Source: Spirogloea muscicola (lineage: Eukaryota; Streptophyta; Zygnematophyceae; Spirogloeales; Spirogloeaceae). From it: a stretch of 21,021 nt of DNA. Shown here piece by piece: positions 3,777 through 21,021 of the stretch. The notes under the pieces are model-generated. The model was not told the DNA's origin. It worked only from the letters and a program-made list of their open reading frames with translations, and made no database searches. Both the position numbers and the translations under genes were made by a program. Every line of letters starts with the position of its first letter. Positions within the stretch are counted from its first letter, which is position 1. The stretch is taken from the NCBI GenBank assembly GCA_009602725.1, contig WELB01000299.1:112909-133929 (forward strand). The letters run 5' to 3'.

Positions 3777-3880
3777 CTTACGAATGTCCTGGTAATGGGG
3801 TAATGCGCTGGCTTAGGGGGACACATAACATCCGCGAGTGAGCACATAAGAGAGAAGATGGAGGACCATAAATTGTCGGC

Positions 3881-3931
3881 AGGGCCAGCGAGGTGAGCTG
3901 CCCGGCTTCAACGCCGCCGAGTCGCTTGCCC
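3881..3931 (+). CDS. Short exon-like segment, unidentified
   Basis: Between a possible acceptor (gtcggcag ending at 3880) and a possible donor (gcccag|gtgttt at 3931/3932) the frame reads GQRGELPGFNAAESLAQ with strongly G/C-ending codons. It is a plausible 17-residue internal exon, but no partner exons or family were found. The rest of 3935-4500 is GC-rich with several overlapping frames and no identified product. Confidence 0.2.
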
Positions 3932-4527
3932 AGGTGTTTCGCGTGCGGCTGTCCATCTCCTTCCAACAACCCCAGGCACACGCAGTGCACTTGCAGGCAG
4001 GCCGCGCTTTGGCTGCTGTTTCGGGTCTCGTCGGGGTGCCTCTTGTACCCTTGGTGGTCTCCACGTCGTCCGGCTCCTCCGGACCGCGTTCAGCATGTTG
4101 TGGGCAGGCTGTTCCCATCCCCTGCGCCCTGGGGGAGAGCTGCGTCGGTCCGGGGCAGAGGCACGAGCCCGAGCTCGGCGCAGGCAGGCTGAGGCGCGGC
4201 GCCGCAGGAGCTTGGGGTAATGATGGAAGGCCAAAGTGGCCGGGTACGGCGGCAAAGCATGGCTGATCAAGTGCAGAACCCACTGCAAAACCTGGCCCGC
4301 AGCGGCGGGGTGGCGCGGCGCGCGCGTGCGGGGGCGCCCGGTCCGCATGCCGACACCCGGGTCAGCGCGCTGACCAGCGACGCTCCGAGTTGGCACCCCC
4401 CGCTCTCCTCCTGGCCCGCCGAGTTGGCAGCCGCTGCCGTCCACCGTCCCATGGCCCGCCCCACTCGCTCACCGCCGCCGCCGCTCGCCGCTGCTCCCCG
4501 CGGACCGCTGCTGCGGCGCGCCGTCCG

Positions 4528-7500
4528 ATGGCGCCCCCCCTCCTGCGCCTCGCCCCCCTCCTCCTCCTCCTCCTCCTCGCCGCCCCTCGCCCCTGCCTGC
4601 CCGCCGCCCCGCCGGTGAGCCCCTCGCCCCCCGCCCCGCTCCCTCAGCCCGCGCACGCCCGCCGCTGCCGCTTTGCAGCTCTCCCGTCCAGCACCGCCGC
4701 CGCCCTGGAGGGCCCGCAGCCGCCGGGCGCCGGAAGCGGGACACGGGGCCGAGTCGTGGCCAGGGAACGGCCCCCGCCCTGGCTCAGGCTCAGGCTCAGG
4801 CTCACGCTCACGCTCTCGCTCACGCCCCCCCTTCCGCCCACGGCCGAGCTCGGTCTCGGGCCCTGGCTCACGCCCGAGGCACGCATACTCGGGTCCAGGA
4901 AAACGCTCAGGCCCCCACTCGAACTCGGGCCTCGGTCTCGGGCTCGGCCCACAGTGGGCAGAAGGGACTGGCCACGCTCAGGCGAGGACAGGATGGGGGC
5001 CTGCCATGCCAGCCTTGGCCGCTGCGTGCAAGGACGCGGTGACGGACGGCCGCGGTGTTGGTCTAGCTCATTCGGGGCCAGTAGCCTGGACGGCAAGGCA
5101 ATGGCCTCGTTGGCGGGATCTGTTCAGGCCAGGCGGCACAGCGTGCGGGCCCGTTCGCCTGGCCCAGCATGGCCTCGCTCCCTCCCAAGCGCTCACCCCA
5201 GATCGACGCCCGCTCGCCGTGAGGGACTGACTCCCCCTTCTCCCGCCTCGCTCCCTCCTTCTCCTTCTTCTGGATACAGTCACCAGGCGCGGAGCGCAAT
5301 GGTGCGCCGGCGCGGCGGGTGCTGCTGGTGGGCCACCACGAGCCTGGCAAGGGAATGCACGCCGGCAAGACGGGCATGCACCCCCCCCGCAAGCGCAAGA
5401 AGACCCCAGTCTGGGGCCCCACCGCCAGTCAATCACAAGCCCTGAAGGGCCTCTTGGCAGTCAAGGCCGCCTTTGCCAACGGGCATGCCAGAGGCCCGCT
5501 GTCCACCTGGGTTGGTGCCAACCCGTGCTCGGGGGCTTGGACTGGAGTCACATGCGAGGCGGGCACGCCTGTCGGAGCGTCCGGCACGGAGCTGCTGGTC
5601 TCGGGCTTGGACCTGAACGGCTTCGGCCTCCAGGGGCCGCTCCCAGGAGCTGCCCTGCTGCAGCTCAAGGACCTGGGCTTCCTGCATGCCAGCCACGTGA
5701 GCACAAGTCCCCCCTGCACCTCTGCTGCCCGGACTCTGAGGCCATTGCAAATGCTGTACCTGCACGACATACCATGGCAATCCTCTTGCCCTTCCTGCGA
5801 TGCCGGACGAGCTCGTGCGCTTTCCTGGATATGCCCGCCTATCACTGTGGGTCGAGTGGCCCGCCGCTCGGCCTCCCTCGGCCTTTGTCAGCCCGCACCG
5901 TCGGTGGGGCTCTCAGAGGCGCCTATTGTGGTGCCCAGGCCGAGCCTGCAGGCCGAGCATCAGGTGGCTTCCCTGAGGCTCCCCGGGCCTAAAGCAGCCG
6001 CGCTCACCAGCGCTGCTCAACGCCTTTGGTCAACTGCAGAACCGCCTGACAGGGGCCCTGCCCAACCTCAGCACCCTAAGCAGGTTGGCGGAGCTGGACC
6101 TGAGCTCCAACTTCTTCCAGGGGCCCATCCCCGCCTCGCTGGCATCCCTGCCGGCCCTGAGGTACCTGGACCTGCGCTACAACCTTCTCACGGGCGGCAT
6201 CCCGCCCGCGCTGTGCGCGGCACAGCTGGATGTCCTCGCCGTGAACCAGAACTCGCTCGGTGCAGCCCTTCCCGCCAACCTGGGTAGCTCTCCGGTGTCG
6301 CTCGCGGTGCTTGGCAACAACCGCCTGAGCGGAGTGATCCCGCCCAGCATCTCCAGCATGGCGGCCACGTTGGTGGAGCTCTACCTCACGGGTGCAGGGC
6401 TGTCAGGCCCCCTCGACCCAGGGCTCGGGGCTCTTGTGTCCTCCCAGGTCCTGGACCTGAGCGCCAACAGCCTGACGGGCGACCTGCCCTCAGTGGCGAA
6501 GCTGAGCAATCTGGTCCGGCTCAACATTGCAAGCAACCAGCTTGACGGGAACATCACCAACAGTGACGTGTTCCACCTGCCAAGGCTCCAGAGTCTTGTG
6601 TACTCGCAGAACCGCTTCACAGGGCTCCCTCCCGCTGACACGTCCGTCCCATTCATTGACGGCTCTGCATGCGACTCTGGTGCCGCGAATGGGACGTTCG
6701 TCACAGTGGACCAGGTCTACAGGATTGGCAACCTGACCTGCCACCACTTTGTCATCCAGGCTCCCTCGCCTCCCCCACCGCGTGCCCCCGGCAGTCCGCC
6801 GGACTCCTCAAGGACCCCCCCCCCACCCCCTCCTCCCCCCATCCCCCCTCCCCCAACCCCTCCCTCTACTCCGCCGCCGCCACCGCCCGCACCCACCCCC
6901 AAGGTACAGCTGCGAATTGCGCCTCACTACATTCAGGCTGTGCTGCCGCCTGCTTAGGTCCGGCAGGTTCCTCACATCTGCTTCTGCCAGTGCAACTCTG
7001 ACCCTGACAGCGCCACAATGTCACGTCCAGCCCGGCCTGCCATGCTAGAGACCAGGTGACTGTCAGCGAGTGTCCATGGGTCATCCTCAGAGTGAGTGAG
7101 TACCGGCGCCCTGGTGCTGTTGTTCAGGCCAGCTCGCCTCCACCTCCACCAGAGAGGATGCAAACCCTGACCTACAAGGGCGGTCGCCTCCTCACCAACC
7201 CCATCGCCATCTACCTTGTTTGGTATGGCACGTGGACGCCCACCCAGCAGTCACTCATCCGTCTCTTTATCAACTCGATCAGCTACTCGCCTGGGGCTGC
7301 TGACGGCTCAGTGCCCACTGTTCAACAGTGGTGGAGCACCATCACCAGCCAATACGTTGACAGGTGCTCGCAAGCATAGCCCACGGCCCTGCCCCTGCCT
7401 GCGGCCCAACACCCAATTCTCGCCCCATTTTCACCCCCCCCCAAAGGCCTTCCAGGCCACGTGCACATCACTCAACCCCACCGCCTTCATCTCTCGCTTC

Positions 7501-9452
7501 TTGACTCCCCACTAACCTTCTTCCCTGCTATCTCATCCTTTATCCTTCCTTCCACTGCCACACCCCCACTTTGCCGCCGCCAGCCCCTGTTGCCAATCCA
7601 TGGCTGTCATTGTGAAGGCTTTGCAGGCTAGTAAGACATCAGCTTCATCAGTTGTGTAAATCTTCCGACCTCCTACTAAGAAAATGTGGTAGTTGCTGCA
7701 TGCACCCCGAGGGCCTTGCAGTGTTCTTGTCCTTCAATTCAGCTGTATGTTGTCTTGCAGCAACCAGAAGCATGTCAGTGCGTCGGTGCTTATCAAGGGG
7801 GAAGTCGAGAACCTGTACTCGCTGCAGAAAAGGCCCCTCGTTCTCTCCCAAGACGTGTTTCGCATCGTCTCCACCGGTATTGCCTCTCAACCCACAACAT
7901 AAAATTGCCAAAGGACAGCCAAGGAAGGTTGTGTGCCCTTGCCCTGGCAAAATCGAGCTTCGCTCCAGTCAGCTGTGCTTGGAAGTTGGCACAGAGATGC
8001 AGCGGTGCCTGCACGAGCTTCTGAATGCTTGTGCCTGCAGGTTGGGCCTTCAAATGGTCTCTAATCCAAATAATTACTTCTCTCTTGCAGCCATTGCTGG
8101 GCAATTTGGGAGTACAGTCGACCCAAACGGAGTGTATGTCGTGCTCACGAGGTTTGCTCACCCAACAATCAAGGAACAGTCTAATGCTGGCCAGTTAAAA
8201 TGTTAAGGAGAGGAACAGACTCTGAATGGACTCCGCAGCATACTGCATGCAGTGGAAGGGTATTGCGGAATATGGATCAGTCTGTTACCTGAAAGCAGGA
8301 TGCCCCCTCTGTTCCGATGAGCCAATCTGGCACCCCTGAGTGCCTCTTTCGCTGACTGCTGTGCACGTTCTCCAGCATGGACGTGTCCGTGGATGCTGCT
8401 TGCTCGCAGTACTGTTCCTTCTTCAGTCAGGACTTCTTCAATGACCCAACAGTTCCAGCGAATCTTGCCTCCTGGGCGTGGATTGGCAACTTAGGCACTC
8501 AGTGCCCCAAGCAGTGCACCCCTGTGCGCAGCTTGCACCCTTGAATCGATATTCGCTTGCTTTCATCCCTCTCGCCTCTGTCAATGGCAGAAAGGCTGGA
8601 ATGGTGCCCTGAAGGATTGGGACTCAAGCCTCATCCACCGAGAGTTTGTAGTCTGTGTAGGTGCAGTGGTATATGGCAAGAGCTTGCTTGTCACAAAGCT
8701 TTGCAAATCTGTACTGATCAAACTGGTTCGGTAGTTCTGCAGTTTGGCGCCAAGCGCACACAGTACAAACCACCAAATGGAGATGCCGGCGTTGACGGCC
8801 TTATCAGGTGCTCTGCAAAGCCCGCAAGTCGGCCCTCACTTTCTGATGCCTCTACATGCTGCTGCGTCACTGCCCCAACGAAAGCATGCCATGGTCTTCG
8901 CTCATCCATGCTAGTAGTTCTTCACACAAGCCCACAAGACCTGTCCAGCAATGGCCCGGCAAGACTAGAAGAGCGGGGCAGGCCCCACGAACTTGATCTT
9001 GACAATGAGGACACTGTGTACTTGAGGCAGTCTATTGGGCGGCGTACTCGCGGATGCGGCCACAAATCCTGGCCTTGGCGATGGGTACACGGACACCAGA
9101 GGCCTTGCTGCGGGGGGTGCTTGCAACTTCGACTTCCCTAACCTCCTCGTAAGCAGTCACATGGACCTGCCGCTGCATGCTCATTCTCCGTGCCAGCGTA
9201 TATCTCTATGCAGACCGTGGTAATGAACGAAGCAGTTGTGAGCGTGGAGGCGTCCTTGCAGAAATACATTTGAGCAAGGAAAACAGCTGACAGGCCATTT
9301 GCCGCAGTGCTCCTGCTGCTGACTAGTATTTGCTGCATTGCGCGCAGTTTAACAATCAATCTGCTGTCTACAATGTCATCGGCGAGCCTACCAAGACCAC
9401 GTTCTTGCTGCAGGGCTTGCTCGACCTTACCACAAAGGTCTGTGTCACGTGA
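4528..9452 (+). CDS. LRR / Pro-rich (extensin-like) / EXORDIUM (Phi-1) fusion protein, predicted secreted cell-wall protein
   Basis: Ten-exon model, 682 aa: 4528-4614, 5448-5696, 6040-6903, 7128-7363, 7761-7876, 8091-8151, 8376-8523, 8743-8807, 9031-9148, 9348-9452. All introns are GT-AG and all junction phases agree. Residues 1-29 are a signal peptide with a Leu run. Residues 30-66 are an LRR N-terminal cap (WVGANPCSGAWTGVTC). About 75-300 are plant-type leucine-rich repeats (LDLSSNFFQGPIP, YLDLRYNLLTGGIP, LDLSANSLTGDLP). Residues 354-408 are a Pro-rich linker. From about 410 to the end is a Phi-1/EXORDIUM domain: IYLVWYGTWTPTQQSLI, PTVQQWWSTI, VYVVLTS, WAWIGNLGTQCPKQC, PPNGDAGVDGLI, ATNPGLGDGY, and a C-terminal TFLLQGLLDLTTKVC. 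EXORDIUM proteins are apoplastic growth-related proteins; LRR-extensins bind wall components or peptides. A role in the wall or extracellular matrix is inferred. The first exon and its join (acceptor 5447) are the weakest part. The domain lacks the usual segment around GAYPGY before the C-terminus, so an exon in 9149-9347 may be missed. Confidence 0.85.
4781..4824 (+). repeat. Hexamer tandem repeat (GGCTCA/CGCTCA) in first intron
   Basis: About seven units of ggctca drifting to cgctca lie inside the predicted first intron of the LRR-EXORDIUM gene. Diverged ggctc/ggtctcgg units continue to about 4960. The tract would encode Gly-Ser/Ser-Arg repeats in one frame but lies between a strong donor (4615) and the LRR cap exon. 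Confidence 0.7.
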
Positions 9453-10075: not shown

Positions 10076-13000
10076 TCAAAGCACAACTGTCCCCTTGCCT
10101 TGCTCAGCCCAAGTATCTGAGGGGATGAGGAAGAATGCCTTGCTGTCCGCGCAGCCTTCGTCACCTGCGCAAGCCCAGCCATGCTTGTCAGCTGAATGAC
10201 ACTGAATGCACGTAGCAGGCATCTCGGCAGAGAGGCACAAGAGACGGGCTAGCCACGTCTGAGGTTGCGACCTGTTATGCTTGTCATCGTTCTTGTCCGT
10301 ATCGCGATGAACAAAGAAGCTCGCTGCAACAATCAGGTAGCAGAGAACTAGCATAAGACCCTTGAAGTAATTCGCCTGTCCCTCCTGCAGGATGTACAAA
10401 TTGCAAACAGTCACACTCACAAACCAACAAGCTGCTTCTGAGAGTGGGAGATGCAATCAGTGATAGCCCACAAGACATGGGCAACGCACAGGGCTACGAG
10501 CTTGTGAGCTAGCCATGTCCAGAACTGGATGCGTTGATAAGATGCAAGTATTGAAGGTGTTGCATGCGTATGAGGTGCTGCAGTCGAAAGTGGCCTCTGA
10601 GAGACCGACTCACAGGCAGACAGACAGACATATAGGTGAGGCTGCAAAGGTGTAGGAAGAAGGGGTTTTGGGGGGGAAGGGGGGGGGGCCGCGCGCTGCN
10701 GAGAGGGAGAGAGGACCAGGAATGGAAGAGAGAGAGGGAGGGGAGGAGAGAGAGGGAAGGGGGGAGCGAGAGAGGAAGGGGGAGAGAGAGGCGGAGAGGG
10801 AGGGGGACAGGAGAGGGAGGAGAATGGGGAGACGGAGAGGGAGCAAAAGAGAGAGGCATGGAGAGGGAGAGGGAGAGGGAGAGGCAGAGGGAGGGTAGAG
10901 GGAGAGTGGAGGCAGGTGGAAGGAAGGCAACGAGAGAAGAGAGAAGGCGTGCGGTGCACATGAAATGAAAGCGTGGCCACTTCAAGCCAATACATTGGAA
11001 AGAAACCAAGGGAAGCGGCGATGAGCAACCGAGGACTCCCTGCTGCAATAATGATTGACATTATGTGACATGAACCAGTCCCATGGTACAACTGAAGGGC
11101 TAGCTGACAAAACTCAAAGCGAGCCTGCCAGATGAGAGAGTCATTGGGAATCAGAAGCAAAGCTTTGCTTCTGAAGCAGGCTTTGCCCTTTGCACTGACC
11201 TGCAGAAGAACAGTGACGACTATCACTGTTATGAACAAGGTAGCAGTCTCAAAGATGTGGAAGTTGAGGTCCATGTCCACATCCATGCACCATGCTATGA
11301 CCACGCAGAAAGGTATCTGTGGTAACAGAAGCACGTCTCAAGATGATGTATATGCCTGCAAGGAAGCATTTGTAAAATCTGCCCTGCACTTATTGCTCGT
11401 ATCAGGGTCAGAGACCTGCCACGCGCCATACAGTGACTTGCACTACGTAAGAGTAGTAGAGACTGACAGCAAACATGGCGATTTGCGTCGAAGAGCCAAT
11501 AGCAACCCCGAGAGAGATGTCCTGCAGTGAGGCAAGCCACCGACATGCTTTGAACTTCAGGAATAACAATACACAATGATGCAGCTCTTGTGCAAGCTCA
11601 AGGGAGAGATAGCATGGGCAACTTAAAGCTCGCATTCCATGTAAGAAGGTGCAAACACTCAAGCCCTGGTCAACAATCACGAATGAGTGGTCTCGCTCCC
11701 AAGGGACGGCTGAGCGCACCAGTTTATCCTTCATAGCAAACAATATTGCAGATGCATGCTCTGCTGCATTGCCAACAATGGGCAACATGATCACACTGAT
11801 GAAGGCAACTGGTATATTCCACGATTCAGCGGCACCCTGCAGGCATGCAGCAAGCCAAGCAACGTGCTCATCAAATGCTGACAATTGCTGACAAGCGAAG
11901 GCGAGAGTCCACGGGATACACGACCTGCATGAAAACTGAAACAATGATGTAGCAACCTCAGATGGCAAGGTATTGGGGCGCCAGAACAGGAAATGCGTCA
12001 ATCGAAAAAACCTAGCACCTCAATTGAGATGACAAGATATCCAGAGAGGATGGAGATGAAGAGGGTTATGACGCCGAGCCAGACGGTGCAGCCCCAAAAG
12101 CTCAAAACTTGCTCCTCATCGTCCTCCACTGTGCTCTCTCGTTCCTCTTCAACTGCCATGTCAGGCAACTCCTGTTGATTGGTGGAGCAATCAGTGGCGA
12201 GGCCAACTTCTAAGCACAACCCTGCAACAACACTTCAACACTTGTGCAGTTCTTTTGAATGTATTCAAAACGCTGGGTCTATGTTAAGAACGAGGAAAAG
12301 CCCGGAAATTGTCATCCAACTGACCTCATCGTACAGGTGGCTGTGACTCTTCAGCTGAAAGAAGAGGAAGAAGGCGTACGCCACAAGCATTACACATGCA
12401 GAGAATCGCGAGAAGGCCAACTCTGACGACCGTTCTTTGATCTCTGTATGTGTAGCTTGAAGCACAGCAGGCAGTACCAGGCCCATGACAGCCATCAGCA
12501 ACAGCCCTGCATTGACCATGGCAGCAGTCTGCTCCAAGCCACCAGCAATGCATGACCAGCTGTTATACGCGGAACACGTGTGTGTCCTTTGGAGGCTTCA
12601 ATGTTATGTGAACCACAACAACATAGACCGCCCAGCAGAGGAAAAGAATCAGGGGAAAGTGCGTCTAATTTGGACGCAAGTACAATATCCTATTTCAAAC
12701 AGACTCCTCTTTCCTTGACATTAGAGCATGCATGCTTGGAGCTCATGAACCTACTTCCTTGTCATGAATTCATGACATGCTTGATTGCAAAGAACCTCTG
12801 GAACATGGACAGGAGCTATTGAGTACGTAGGCAGAACTGAGTCAAACCAGCTTTGGCTTCTTATGACTTCAATCTTGACGCAGAGAAGAGTGTCATCTAT
12901 AGCCACACTGCTTTTAGTAAAGCAAAAGTTCGTCTAGTGCAGGTTGAAGTCTGACACCTTATTGAAAAGTTGCTCCCGCTTCCGTAAGCCGCCAGCGAAG

Positions 13001-13899
13001 AAGGCGCACCCCAAGACAAGCAGCATGTTGGACAAAATTGATCCCAGAAGTGATAGTTGGACAACCCGGACGAGGTTGCTTTGCAAGGCGAAAATTGATA
13101 TGATCATCTCCGTGGCATTGCCAAAGGTGGCATTCAGAAGCCCACCCACTGCACAACATTTGAATGTGGTCAAAATCAGCACATACTACTTTGGACGCCC
13201 AACAGCTAGAGAGCAAGCCTCCTCTGCAACAGCAGCACTTGACCCCTCAGGCATACAGCCCAGACAGGGGATCCAGATGCTTTCTCATGTCAGTGATACA
13301 GTAGCACCATGGGCAAACGACATTTCCATTCAAAGTGCAGCAGCGGTTGAAAGCCAGGTTATGCTGCTCACATGTAGGCCCAACAAAGGTTGAGAGTTGC
13401 CTGTATACAAAGACGCACAAACAAAAGTCGGTGACAGTCACTAAACCTCATCAAACTTCAAGATATGCAGGCAACTGGCTACAGCAAGTAGATTGTGCGG
13501 GCTTACAACTCATGCCAGCAAGGACAAGCAAGGTGAAGCATAGACAACTCACTCCGTGACAAACCCAAGTCGCTCGGCAAGAGGCGCAATTCCAAACAAA
13601 CTGAAGATGAAGAGCCACCCCTGCAGTACAAGTGGAGCCAATATCAGGATGAGTGCCTCCGATCCTCAAACTTCAATCTGGTGCACGATGCAAACCTGAG
13701 TCTGGACACTACCTGCCATCACTCATCAACATGGGTTTGCCCTCTCCAGAGATGCACTGAGATGCTCACCTTACCCACACCAAGAACATCCGCTACGATG
13801 GACACTGGCACAAATAGCAGTAGAATGCTGAGCTTGTTTGCAAGAAGCAGCTGCCCCAGAATGTGACGGATACCTGGCCACCACAACTTCTTGCCCTTT
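10076..13899 (-). CDS. Vacuolar-type cation/H+ exchanger (CAX, Ca2+:H+ antiporter family)
   Basis: Minus-strand exons in coding order: 13899-13770, 13620-13553, 13400-13372, 13148-12958, 12528-12325, 12171-12019, 11836-11720, 11521-11468, 11316-11200, 10384-10076. All phases match, giving 456 aa; the N-terminus lies upstream. CAX proteins exchange cytosolic Ca2+ or other divalent cations for protons, usually at the vacuole. Landmarks, numbered from 13899: [20 protein letters not shown] (first TM), [29 protein letters not shown] (c-1 repeat, Glu at 89), [32 protein letters not shown], an acidic loop [14 protein letters not shown] (215-228) where CAX proteins carry their acidic motif, [11 protein letters not shown] (c-2 repeat, Glu at 284), [27 protein letters not shown] and [20 protein letters not shown]. 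Both ion-binding repeats are intact, so it should be functional. Exon 3 is only 29 nt. The last exon adds about 75 residues beyond the final TM, including four Cys within 20 residues. The last intron (10385-11199) carries repeat DNA. Confidence 0.93.
10659..10998 (+). repeat. Composite repeat (polypurine GA/GGGA tract plus module 2) in the last CAX intron; one ambiguous base
   Basis: From about 10659 to 10937 the plus strand is almost pure purine (GAGAGGGA-type), with an undetermined base n at 10700. It is followed at 10938-10998 by a clear module 2 copy (gagaaggcgtgcggtgcaca, then tgaaatg and ccacttcaagccaatacattg). The order matches 3641-3776. It lies in the 815-nt intron between the last two CAX exons, on the strand opposite to transcription. 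Long Ser/Pro/Leu frames across it are artefacts. Confidence 0.8.
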
Positions 13900-17050: not shown

Positions 17051-20000
17051 ATGGCCCGCGTCTCGGTGTGCGTGCGCTTCCGGCCTCCCAGCCAACGCGA
17101 GAAGGCGGAGGAGCAGCGCAGCTGCGTGCAGCGCGCTTCCAACGAGTCCTTTGCCTGGAAGGTAAGCCCGGGCCTCAACATGCATGCCCAAAACCTCCGA
17201 GTCCCCATCCCCATCACATGCTCTCAGTGAGCAACAGTATCCCCCTTGCTACTCATTATATCGTTGACCACTCATAGTCTCGTTGTCGCTGGCCTGCGGA
17301 TCTGCAGAATGACCGAGAAGGCAGCCTGTCCTTCACGTTTGATCGCATCTTCTACCCAGACGCGCAGCAGGCTGAGGTCTTCGACTATGTGGCTGAGCCG
17401 ATTGTCAGAGGTCAGTACTTTCAGGGGTCCCTGCACATGCAGATAGCTCGATTGCAATGCTCCGCAGCTGCGTAGTTGATCGCAACGCCTGTCATGGCAG
17501 GCGCTTTTGCTGGAATCAATGGCTCCATACTGGCCTATGGACAGGTTCGCACTCAGCCTGACGGCCGTGCTTCAGTCTGGATCTTCACCATAACTCAACT
17601 TCAATTGAGTGAGGCATTTGGTGCACCATCATTCTCCGACCTGTTGCTGCGTTGTGACCTCTATCTCCTTGCGCTGTAGACGGGGGCAGGGAAGACTTAC
17701 ACAATGGAGGTGGAAACCTCACCTTGCACGAGACAATTCTGTGCGTCTGGAGGACATGGCCTGTCCCTGCTGCTGCCTACCACCACTGATGTGCAGCTCG
17801 CCATACTGAAGCGGAACCTCCAGTGACTGCTCTTCCATGCCCTTGCAAATCAGGGGCCTAATCAGGGGCCGCGCGCGAGTCTTGGACATCCTGATGATGA
17901 TGGCATTTTGCCAAGGCTAGCTAAGGCAATCTTTGCTGCAATCAGAACAGCGGATCCAAAGGTGGAGTTTGTCATCAAGCTTGCCATGGTGACTCCTGTT
18001 GCCCGCAAGAAACACACTAGACTTGTGCCAGTGCATGCTCCTAGGTACTGTTGTGAACTTCAAGTCATATTCAAGTTCAACTTCACCAGCCATTTATATT
18101 CTGCGCACTTAGAATTGCACACTTAGAATTCATATATTGTCTTCTGCATAAAGCTTTCGATCTAAATGTCACGTGGTCAATGAGCAACAACTTTTGCTGA
18201 TATCTCCTAGGTAGAGATATACAAGGAGAAGATCAGGTACATTGTCGTTCTCAGTGTTACATTGTGGAAGTACCTAGCATCTGGATAAGGTCTTCAGCAA
18301 GCCGTGCGCGTCGCCTTCATCCATTCACTTGGTCGGTGACCTCCACCAAGGACAACTGAAGACTCGTGCAGTGTGACTATGAGAAGCAGGGACCTGCTCG
18401 ATACCGACAAGGACAACCTCCTGATCAAGGAGGGCAAGGATGAGGGCATCTACATCGCGGGTGCCACAGAGGTGTGCTCTTCGCATGTAGAGGTGGTCAC
18501 TTTGGCTTTGGCTTTGGCAGATGCCCAGTTGTGCGACATTACCTTAGTCTCTCCTAGGTAGTGCTTGCTCGCTAGCTTGCTCGTGAGTTGATAATAGATG
18601 CATAGGTGCGGCATCTGCTCATATTACTCGTGGCATGCTTGATGTAGGCCTTCGTGCAGACCGAGTTAGAGATGCAGAAGCTTCTGCAGGTTGCTTACTC
18701 CAGCTTATGATGCAGCTTCTTGTGATAATGTGTCTTATTTGCCCGGTGACTTGCTCTCTGTGCAGCATCAAGCTGTCGATAGTTAGTTGAGAAAGAGGAC
18801 GCTGTTGCAGATGCTATGCTCTGTTGCCGTACTCAGAGTGCATCGTGTGGGGGTGTGTTGTAGGCTGGCATCATCAATAGGGCTGTGGCTGCGACTGGTA
18901 TATTCACCATGCACTGATCATCACTCTTCGGTTGCAAATTATAAGAGCAGTGTTGCTTGTCCTGCATGCTGTGGAGCATTTCTCTGTTGAAATGGCCCTG
19001 CAGACATGAATGAGGAGAGCAGCAGGAGCCACTGTGTATACATGGTGACCATCCAGCAAGAGAGCATTGACGATCGAAGGTCTGCCTTATTTGGCCTGAC
19101 TACGCATTCCTCTCTGCATCAGCCCTCGTGTGACACTGTTCCTGAAGCATCTGCTTGTCGCAAAGGCAGACTGTTAAATCAGTTGGGCACAGAGCTGAGT
19201 CAGTGCAGTTGACGACTTACTGTGCACAAAGTGTCATGTCTACCTTTCCAGCGTACGAGTTGGGAAGCTACACTTCGTGGACCTTGCTGGGTCAGAGAAG
19301 GTCGTCAAGTCAAGCACACATGGGCACCTCGTGGATGAGGCCAAAACCATTAATAAGTCACTGTCCGCCTTGGGCATTGTCATCAACGCTCTGACCGATG
19401 GTAAGCAGACCCCAGCCATTCTAGGAGTAAATTCATTGATTGTTGCTGCACTTACTCCAAAGATGTGCTCATGCAAGCTCTGCACGACTTTCAGGCAAAT
19501 CTCGGCACATCCCTTATCGTGATTCAAAGCTTACACGAGTCCTTCAAGAAACTCTGGTTAGCATCGCTCTGTCGGCCTGGTCAATTGGTCCCCTGATCGG
19601 TCGGTCCATACCGAACAATGATTGATTGCTTCGGCCAATCCCCCTGGCCACACGCTGCTGCAACTGCAAAACTGACGCTAGCATCTCTTGTATACGTTGT
19701 GTAAAAGGGAGGAAACTGTCAGACCTGCCTGCTTTGTTGCTGCTCTCCCAGCAGCTTCAGCGCCGCAGAGACACTCTCCACTTTGCGATTTGGTGCACGG
19801 TATGACCACTTCCGACTTGCACCCATTATAACGCTTGTACTACCACAGGTTGCAAGTCTGGTCCAGGTGATAAGGATGGCGTCAACTTCTGTGATCTCGC
19901 ATCAGAGCCGGTTAGCAGGACATGAAAGCTGTGCCGCTGTAGCAGTTTCCATGGATGCTTTCAGGGCAGCAGAGGTGAAAAACGAGCCAACTGTGAATGA

Positions 20001-20755: not shown

Positions 20756-20986
20756 CTACGTTCGTGTCAAACACCTCAAGCTATTGTCAGGAGATTCGAC
20801 CAGTCAGACATAGAATGTGATGTGATCAGCAGCTCGAGTGACAGCGTCTCCTTTGACTAAAAGTAGCTCTCACCAAGCCTGATGCAATATATATGTGATT
20901 AAGGAAAAAATATTTCTGGAGAGAGCTGAAGAGCTTAGGCCTAATGCTTGCGCCTTGCCCCATGGGGCTTCGTGCTTCTTGGGACT
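20756..20986 (+). other. 3' flank of the kinesin gene
   Basis: No frame of note. An A/T-rich patch (20886-20914) may lie near the transcript end, but no TGTAA signal was found here. Confidence 0.3.
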
Positions 20987-21021
20987 GGGTTTCGGGTTTC
21001 GGGTTCGGGGTTCGGGGTTCG
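20987..21021 (+). repeat. Telomere-like tandem repeat at window edge
   Basis: Units of gggtttc (two) drift to gggttc and ggggttc (three) and run off the end of the window. They resemble but do not equal the plant/algal telomere unit TTTAGGG. It could be a minisatellite or a degenerate subtelomeric array. Confidence 0.6.

Follow-up and report, generated by a model that had tools for sequence, protein, structure and literature searches.

Can the leucine-rich repeat (LRR) part of an LRR-extensin (LRX) and an EXORDIUM (Phi-1) domain, two secreted modules of wall growth that in plants are known as separate proteins, be parts of one gene? The question is raised by a locus of the alga Spirogloea muscicola in the final 21 kb of contig C299 (WELB01000299.1, positions 112909-133929 of 133929; assembly of 153 Mb in 471 contigs); this stretch of 21,021 nucleotides is referred to as the window. 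The analysis confirmed, at the level of genomic sequence, that an LRR domain, a Pro-rich hinge and an EXORDIUM domain lie on one gene model. The explanation that we favour, with a probability of roughly 60%, is that this fused gene encodes a secreted chimeric wall protein of 738 amino acids (aa), in which an LRX-like LRR would be anchored in the wall and a probably inactive EXORDIUM domain would act as a binding module in wall growth. The presence of both modules on one gene hints at joint work at the cell surface.

Anatomy of the gene model

The fused gene occupies 4528-9452 on the + strand and consists of ten exons, whose spliced product is 738 residues plus a stop. All nine introns are GT-AG and their phases are consistent throughout. 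A sequence-only reading of this DNA had placed the domains on one transcript model with agreeing phases, and its start, its end and its introns 5697-6039 and 6904-7127 (both phase 0) proved correct, as did its view that the LRR/Pro join is uninterrupted by an intron, since the join sits within exon 3 (6040-6903); the length that it gave, 682 aa, has to be replaced by 738 aa. The domain search that it had proposed found LRRNT_2, LRR_8 and Phi_1 (PF04674) in the model. The features are as follows, C88 and C117 being contigs with sister loci and C8, C137 and C223 contigs with LRX-like genes.

4047..4403, + strand: 5′ flank common to the sister loci on C117 and C88 (15 of 15 candidates scored)
4528..4614, + strand: exon 1, hydrophobic, signal-peptide-like N-terminus of 29 aa (hydropathy)
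5280..5696, + strand: exon 2, His/Lys-rich N-terminal stretch, LRRNT_2 cap (nucleotides 5445-5555) and first LRR (Pfam)
6040..6633, + strand: first part of exon 3 (6040-6903), LRX-type LRRs (Pfam, PDB profile matches, 50-53% identity to the LRX-like genes of the genome)
6670..6750, + strand: exon 3, two-Cys cap with Cys379, Cys402 and Phe405 (invariant C241, C264 and F267 in the alignment with C8, C137 and C223)
6763..6903, + strand: end of exon 3, Pro-rich hinge (also in C88 from 6817 and in C117 from 6853)
6904..7127, + strand: phase-0 intron within the Pro-rich hinge (GT-AG in the window and both sisters)
7128..7363, + strand: exon 4, final Pro run ASSPPPPPE, then start of Phi_1/EXORDIUM (Pfam)
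7761-7876, 8091-8151, 8376-8523, 8743-8807, 9031-9148 and 9348-9452, + strand: exons 5-10, remaining Phi_1/EXORDIUM and stop
9041..9055, + strand: site matching the HExxE of bacterial Phi_1, here GVLAD (alignment with 52 bacterial rows)

In the Pfam search LRRNT_2 was found at aa 85-121, and LRR_1, LRR_4 and LRR_8 exceeded their cut-offs with the best stretches within aa 149-362; about ten repeats were counted by eye. Phi_1 covered aa 470-738 and profile positions 1-275 of 276 (E 1.5e-47), which makes it a full-length domain. The hinge between them comprises 60 aa, of which 58% are Pro; it contains two SP≥3 motifs and lacks Tyr. The strongest 19-residue hydrophobic stretch begins at aa 1 and, by hydropathy, no later segment is of similar strength, suggesting that the protein is secreted and not membrane-bound. 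A search of Rfam gave no match. The anatomy of the gene is well supported; its function is what we infer below.

The Pro-rich hinge and the EXORDIUM exons in three loci

The sister locus on C88 (L021) was 88% identical to the window from 6817 and that on C117 (L022) 90% identical from 6853, both to about 9876, beyond which similarity continued for about 5 kb (93% for C117, 87% for C88). All seven introns of the Phi_1 side were retained as GT-AG in both sisters. The seven Phi_1 exons contained no gap column in any of the three pairwise comparisons, and gaps occurred in 17 of the 21 intron comparisons. The ratios of nonsynonymous to synonymous substitution (dN/dS) of these exons among the window and the two sisters were 0.226, 0.206 and 0.244, with dN of 0.03-0.04; judged by these ratios, the Phi_1 exons are under purifying selection. 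Because the sister alignments preserve both the Pro-rich end of exon 3 and the phase-0 intron, these are linked to Phi_1 in three loci, and in all three the Pro run crosses the 6904-7127 intron in frame.

The same intron offers another explanation, namely that two genes lie side by side, an LRR-Pro gene that terminates in frame at 6955-6957 and an independent EXORDIUM gene downstream of it. The reading frame of exon 3 indeed runs 17 codons into the intron, to a TAG ending at 6957 that is present in all three loci, and the two sisters are near-identical there (dN 0.027, dS 0). This explanation would also suit the finding that the remaining EXORDIUM loci that were fetched yielded no LRR nearby, and that several of them show a signal-like start of their own. 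However, between the window and the sisters the extension had dN of 0.20 and 0.24 (dS 0.31; 17 codons only), compared with 0.03-0.04 in the Phi_1 exons, and the in-frame Pro run spans the intron in every copy. Moreover, no signal peptide is encoded in the frame leading into exon 4, and the first Met of that frame falls inside the Phi_1 domain, which supports the sequence-only reading of a single fused gene. Two adjacent genes are therefore regarded as quite improbable, and a single fused gene is the reading retained here.

The genome contains about 24 Phi_1 domain starts among 46 matches (an approximate, exon-level count). No LRR match or pattern was found near EXORDIUM in any of 20 fetched regions (L021-L040, two of them the sisters and some overlapping), of which L023, L024, L030, L033 and L038 hold runs of about 5-6 kb of undetermined bases (N) upstream and others shorter ones. 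Sets of three were seen in other families: ribosomal protein S24e gave three matches on three contigs, GRAS gave 92 exon matches, many as three-contig sets, and malectin-like and several other Phi_1 matches were also in three-contig sets (some Phi_1 sets comprised only two). Since unrelated gene families also occur in threes, the loci on C299, C117 and C88 were read as homeologues, and a local or subtelomeric triplication was considered less likely. To our knowledge, GRAS genes are confined among algae to zygnematophytes. The GRAS genes and the threefold gene sets point to a zygnematophyte, so the chlorophyte origin assumed in the sequence-only reading does not hold. Spirogloea muscicola belongs to the zygnematophytes, and its whole genome has undergone a recent triplication (PMC10487979; here and below, papers are cited for the part of their text that was available).

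Downstream of the fused gene, frames of a Na/Ca or cation/proton exchanger (PF01699; one just below the cut-off) lie at 11408-13185 on the - strand, within the stretch common to C117 and C88, and a kinesin motor domain exon (PF00225) lies at 19199-19522 on the + strand. The contig ends at 20980-21021 in degenerate telomere-like repeats (TTTCGGG/TTCGGGG, by eye), about 11.6 kb from the end of the gene. TTTAGGG repeats occur in the assembly, including at some contig starts.

The LRR half and its place at the locus

When the LRR was compared with PDB sequences (60 of 128 matches listed), Arabidopsis LRX2 reached 165 bits in one uninterrupted match to aa 104-368. The pollen LRX, whose chain is named pollen-specific LRR extensin-like protein 1, also matched in a single stretch, with 147 and 146 bits, and so did polygalacturonase inhibitors, with 85 and 83 bits. 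Receptor kinases outranked LRX2 by summed repeats; the best segment of the top-ranked one, GSO1, reached 86 bits among the segments listed. With the C-terminal half of the LRR, LRX2 gave 89 bits in a single stretch versus at most 46 among the listed segments of five receptors, and with a 69-aa piece 77 bits versus at most 31 among those of three receptors. A profile of five algal LRR units matched LRX2 over 1-227 of 257 with 223 bits and pollen LRX over 1-223 with 192 bits. By alignment score, LRX2 is the best single-stretch PDB match for the LRR domain among the matches listed. The match ends at aa 368, before the two conserved Cys of the cap.

LRX-like genes were found elsewhere in the genome, on C8 (L123), C137 (L124) and C223 (L041 and L042), and were 50-53% identical to the fused gene over the LRR and the C..F cap. 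Of the four units compared, three have Pro after the cap; the exception is one of the pair on C223, in which no Pro directly follows the cap. A search of the assembly contigs with Phi_1 gave no EXORDIUM match in these genes. Their Pro tracts run for hundreds of residues and are followed in C137 and C223 by a second LRRNT-LRR, and in C8 the tract runs into N.

An LRR domain of about 10-11 repeats with an N-cap is characteristic of LRXs, and the fused protein has an LRR domain of this type. It has no C-terminal extensin domain with repeated Ser-Pro(n); its hinge is followed by Phi_1. Because LRXs by definition end in an extensin domain (PMC7357788), the protein was not filed as an LRX; in its domain composition it is an LRX-like chimera. 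Of the name LRR-extensin used in the sequence-only reading, the LRX-like LRR and the Pro-rich hinge stand, and the full extensin domain does not (two SP≥3 motifs within 60 aa). A survey of 16 genomes reported, in its available text, no LRX in its four algae, including the streptophyte Klebsormidium (PMC4769139), and an LRX1-like protein has been reported from Penium (PMC6027541); the LRX-like genes of Spirogloea bear on when the LRX module arose.

In neither sister are the LRR exons intact, the assembly being broken at this place. In C88 a run of 1973 N, which begins in the Pro tract, takes the place of the LRR; in C117 the tract contains one N, after which come about 2.6 kb of unrelated sequence. 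The latter site is possibly a wrongly filled assembly gap. Its filler (L022:3046-5640) shows, by eye, an ESCRT-III-like frame and short TTTAGGG repeats beside the single N.

These breaks raise the possibility of an assembly chimera, in which an LRR-Pro contig has been joined to a Pro-EXORDIUM contig via the C-rich Pro tract. Such an error would suit the facts that both sisters break in that tract, one of them seemingly misfilled, and that, whereas the rest of the locus is present in three copies, none close to identical was found for the LRR half (the best match of the LRR exons after the gene itself was only 51% identical, with 108 of 432 candidates scored). Against this, 4528-9452 contains no N, the sole N of the window being at 10700, and the frame, the phase and the boundary between Cys cap and Pro suit both sides. 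The 5′ flank also belongs to the same threefold locus: it matched C117 at 77% (window 4051-4346) and C88 at 73% (4047-4403), with nothing else longer than 140 bases. The distance from this flank to the Pro-rich exon is about 2.4-2.5 kb in the window, 2.2 kb in C88 (mostly N) and 2.6 kb in C117, in agreement with the gap sizes of the sisters. An assembly chimera is thus considered unlikely. The flank comparison was made on what remained after the stretch 3871-4046 had been set aside: its collinearity with C88 was dismissed as evidence because the stretch is a repeat dispersed through the genome, and scoring 40 of 1825 candidates turned up at least 39 more copies, 82-88% identical.

Taken together, the LRR is argued to belong at the locus because the sisters share the 5′ flank at similar spacing and because LRX-like genes elsewhere repeat the order of LRR, Cys cap and Pro. 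Each of the two joins is thus seen again at independent loci. The part of the Pro tract that depends on the window by itself is only about 50 bases long.

The EXORDIUM domain and the proposed working of the fusion

Relatives of the EXORDIUM half were sought in bacterial and archaeal genomes. An initial scan of bacterial genomes gave 29 stretches and no relative; a scan of bacterial and archaeal genomes gave 173 relatives among 208 candidate stretches, of which 80 were kept. An H[DE]xxE-type motif was present in the later part of 78 of these 80. In an alignment of 52 of the 80 with the window domain (A2), in which Phi_1 matched all 53 rows, the bacterial rows kept H206 and E207 in 52 of 52 and E210 in 51 of 52, as well as H147, D214, E228, N229 and D231 in 52 of 52. 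All of these are replaced in the window (H206 by G, E207 by V, E210 by D, H147 by F, D214 by N, E228 by A, N229 by A and D231 by G; D214 to N is, like E210 to D, a mild change), so that GVLAD stands in place of the bacterial HExxE. Among the 81 columns conserved in at least 90% of the bacteria, 35 are retained, including WYG.W and Cys 144, 178, 233 and 273. Within the same genome HExxE was found by pattern in nine of the 20 fetched regions, and L027 and L030 show it in alignments; it is missing in the window, the two sisters, L034 and L037, and the site was not located in L025, L029, L031, L038 and L039. These replacements suggest that the EXORDIUM domain of the fusion is probably inactive as an enzyme.

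The bacterial relatives (L043-L122) were spread across Acidobacteria, Proteobacteria, Myxococcales and others, many from soil, with HExxE almost invariant; a few carry other C-terminal extensions. Their number contradicts the statement of a 2009 study, in its available text, that EXO homologues occur only in land plants and one bacterium, Solibacter (PMC2661892).

An AlphaFold2 model of Phi_1 built from the 53 sequences had a mean predicted local distance difference test score (pLDDT) of 70.8 and a predicted template modelling score of 0.75, the C-terminal part being weakly predicted; the single-sequence model had a pLDDT of 33.8. With short helices omitted, the order of elements was strand-helix-helix-strand-helix-strand-strand-strand-helix, the HExxE site falling within the last long helix (195-213). 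We take this order to resemble that of zincins, and a zincin-like fold is offered as a lead from the model, not as a result. When Phi_1 profiles were compared with PDB sequences, the best matches had E values of 0.25 and 0.35, and none was convincing as a relative.

The loss of the motif could also mean that the gene is a true fusion that is decaying or unexpressed and has no function. The replacement of HExxE and other polar invariants and the position of the locus, about 11.6 kb away from degenerate telomere-like repeats (by eye) at a contig end, are in line with this idea. However, dN/dS of 0.21-0.24, Phi_1 exons free of frameshifts and seven splice-site pairs kept in three copies argue for a maintained gene, and HExxE is missing as well in L034, L037, L019 and L020, which are other EXORDIUM loci of the genome. 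We therefore hold a non-functional gene to be very unlikely and keep to a secreted chimeric wall protein.

Such a protein could have arisen by fusion of an EXORDIUM gene with the LRR, cap and Pro portion of an LRX-like gene, an event that probably predates the threefold state of the genome. The Pro hinge, if hydroxylated and glycosylated, would anchor the protein in the wall matrix, and the LRR may bind either a peptide or a plasma-membrane partner, by analogy with plant LRXs, which are regulators of wall formation that bind RALF peptides and FERONIA (PMC7357788). Possible partners are encoded in the genome by genes with malectin-like domains (15 matches). The EXORDIUM domain, in which much of the core and the cysteines are kept and the polar residues around HExxE are replaced, may serve as a binding or scaffold module linked to wall expansion or osmotic stress, and fusion would fix the two halves in a one-to-one ratio and in one place. 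That they act together is plausible from the fusion itself; in the EXORDIUM half, residues kept by the aligned bacterial relatives have been replaced. With regard to the wall, an exordium-like protein of zygnematophytes, predicted to be wall-located, rises in osmotic stress (PMC12820192), 12 EXL homologues are reported from Mesotaenium (PMC10505561), 10 of the 18 EXORDIUM-like proteins of Marchantia were seen in its wall proteome (PMC8792609), and higher-order exo/exl mutants of Arabidopsis have stiffer hypocotyls (PMC13103426).

Several points weigh against this explanation. The fused gene is known from the genomic sequence of one species. The LRR exons are intact in one of the three sister loci, the other two breaking in the Pro tract; the approximately 50 bases of that tract near 6770-6817 are supported by the window copy alone; and the flanks of the sisters cease to match about 110-180 bases before the ATG. 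The function of plant LRXs is tied to RALF and FERONIA, and a RALF search of the genome gave nothing, its controls being silent as well. The proposed inactivity presupposes a catalytic role for the bacterial HExxE, the replacement of E210 by D is mild, and 35 of the 81 bacterially conserved columns survive.

In the literature searched, no description of an LRR-EXORDIUM protein was found in the text available, and by its domain order the fusion appears to be a new architecture made from known parts. In the available portions, Phi_1 proteins of centaury were judged probably not to be chimeric arabinogalactan proteins (PMC8471777), a review of wall proteomes puts phi proteins in one group and LRR proteins in another (PMC9029284), and what EXO/EXL proteins do biochemically is still described as unknown in a paper of 2026 (PMC13103426). 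A gene joining LRX-like and EXORDIUM modules is a direct lead on the working partner of EXORDIUM, and the HExxE of the bacterial relatives, lost here, gives a testable idea of the former activity of the domain. A bolder and tentative idea, more doubtful than not in our judgement, is that this fusion in the sister lineage of land plants reveals EXORDIUM working within the LRX wall-integrity module, EXORDIUM having come from a bacterial secreted, zincin-like HExxE enzyme and having become here a dead, binding-only domain under LRX-type wall anchoring.

Compared with known systems, the fused gene resembles plant LRX and pollen PEX in its N-cap, in an LRX-type LRR alignable in one stretch, possibly in a Cys-containing link, and in a Pro-rich part after the LRR; plant LRXs are secreted, and the fused protein likewise looks secreted. 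Unlike theirs, its Pro part is short, contains no Tyr, is not C-terminal and is followed by EXORDIUM. The LRX-like genes on C8, C137 and C223 differ from it in their long Pro tracts, in the second LRR of two of the three loci and in giving no EXORDIUM match. With EXORDIUM and EXORDIUM-LIKE proteins (Phi-1, PF04674) it shares a complete Phi_1 domain and probable secretion, but in those the conserved region makes up nearly the whole protein of about 300 aa (PMC2661892), whereas the fused protein has 738 aa with the domain from aa 470, after LRR and hinge. Bacterial Phi_1 proteins share the Phi_1 domain; unlike the fusion, they retain HExxE and CGWH, no LRR was noticed by eye in the eight long members listed, and most are single-domain proteins of about 300-350 aa, some being longer.

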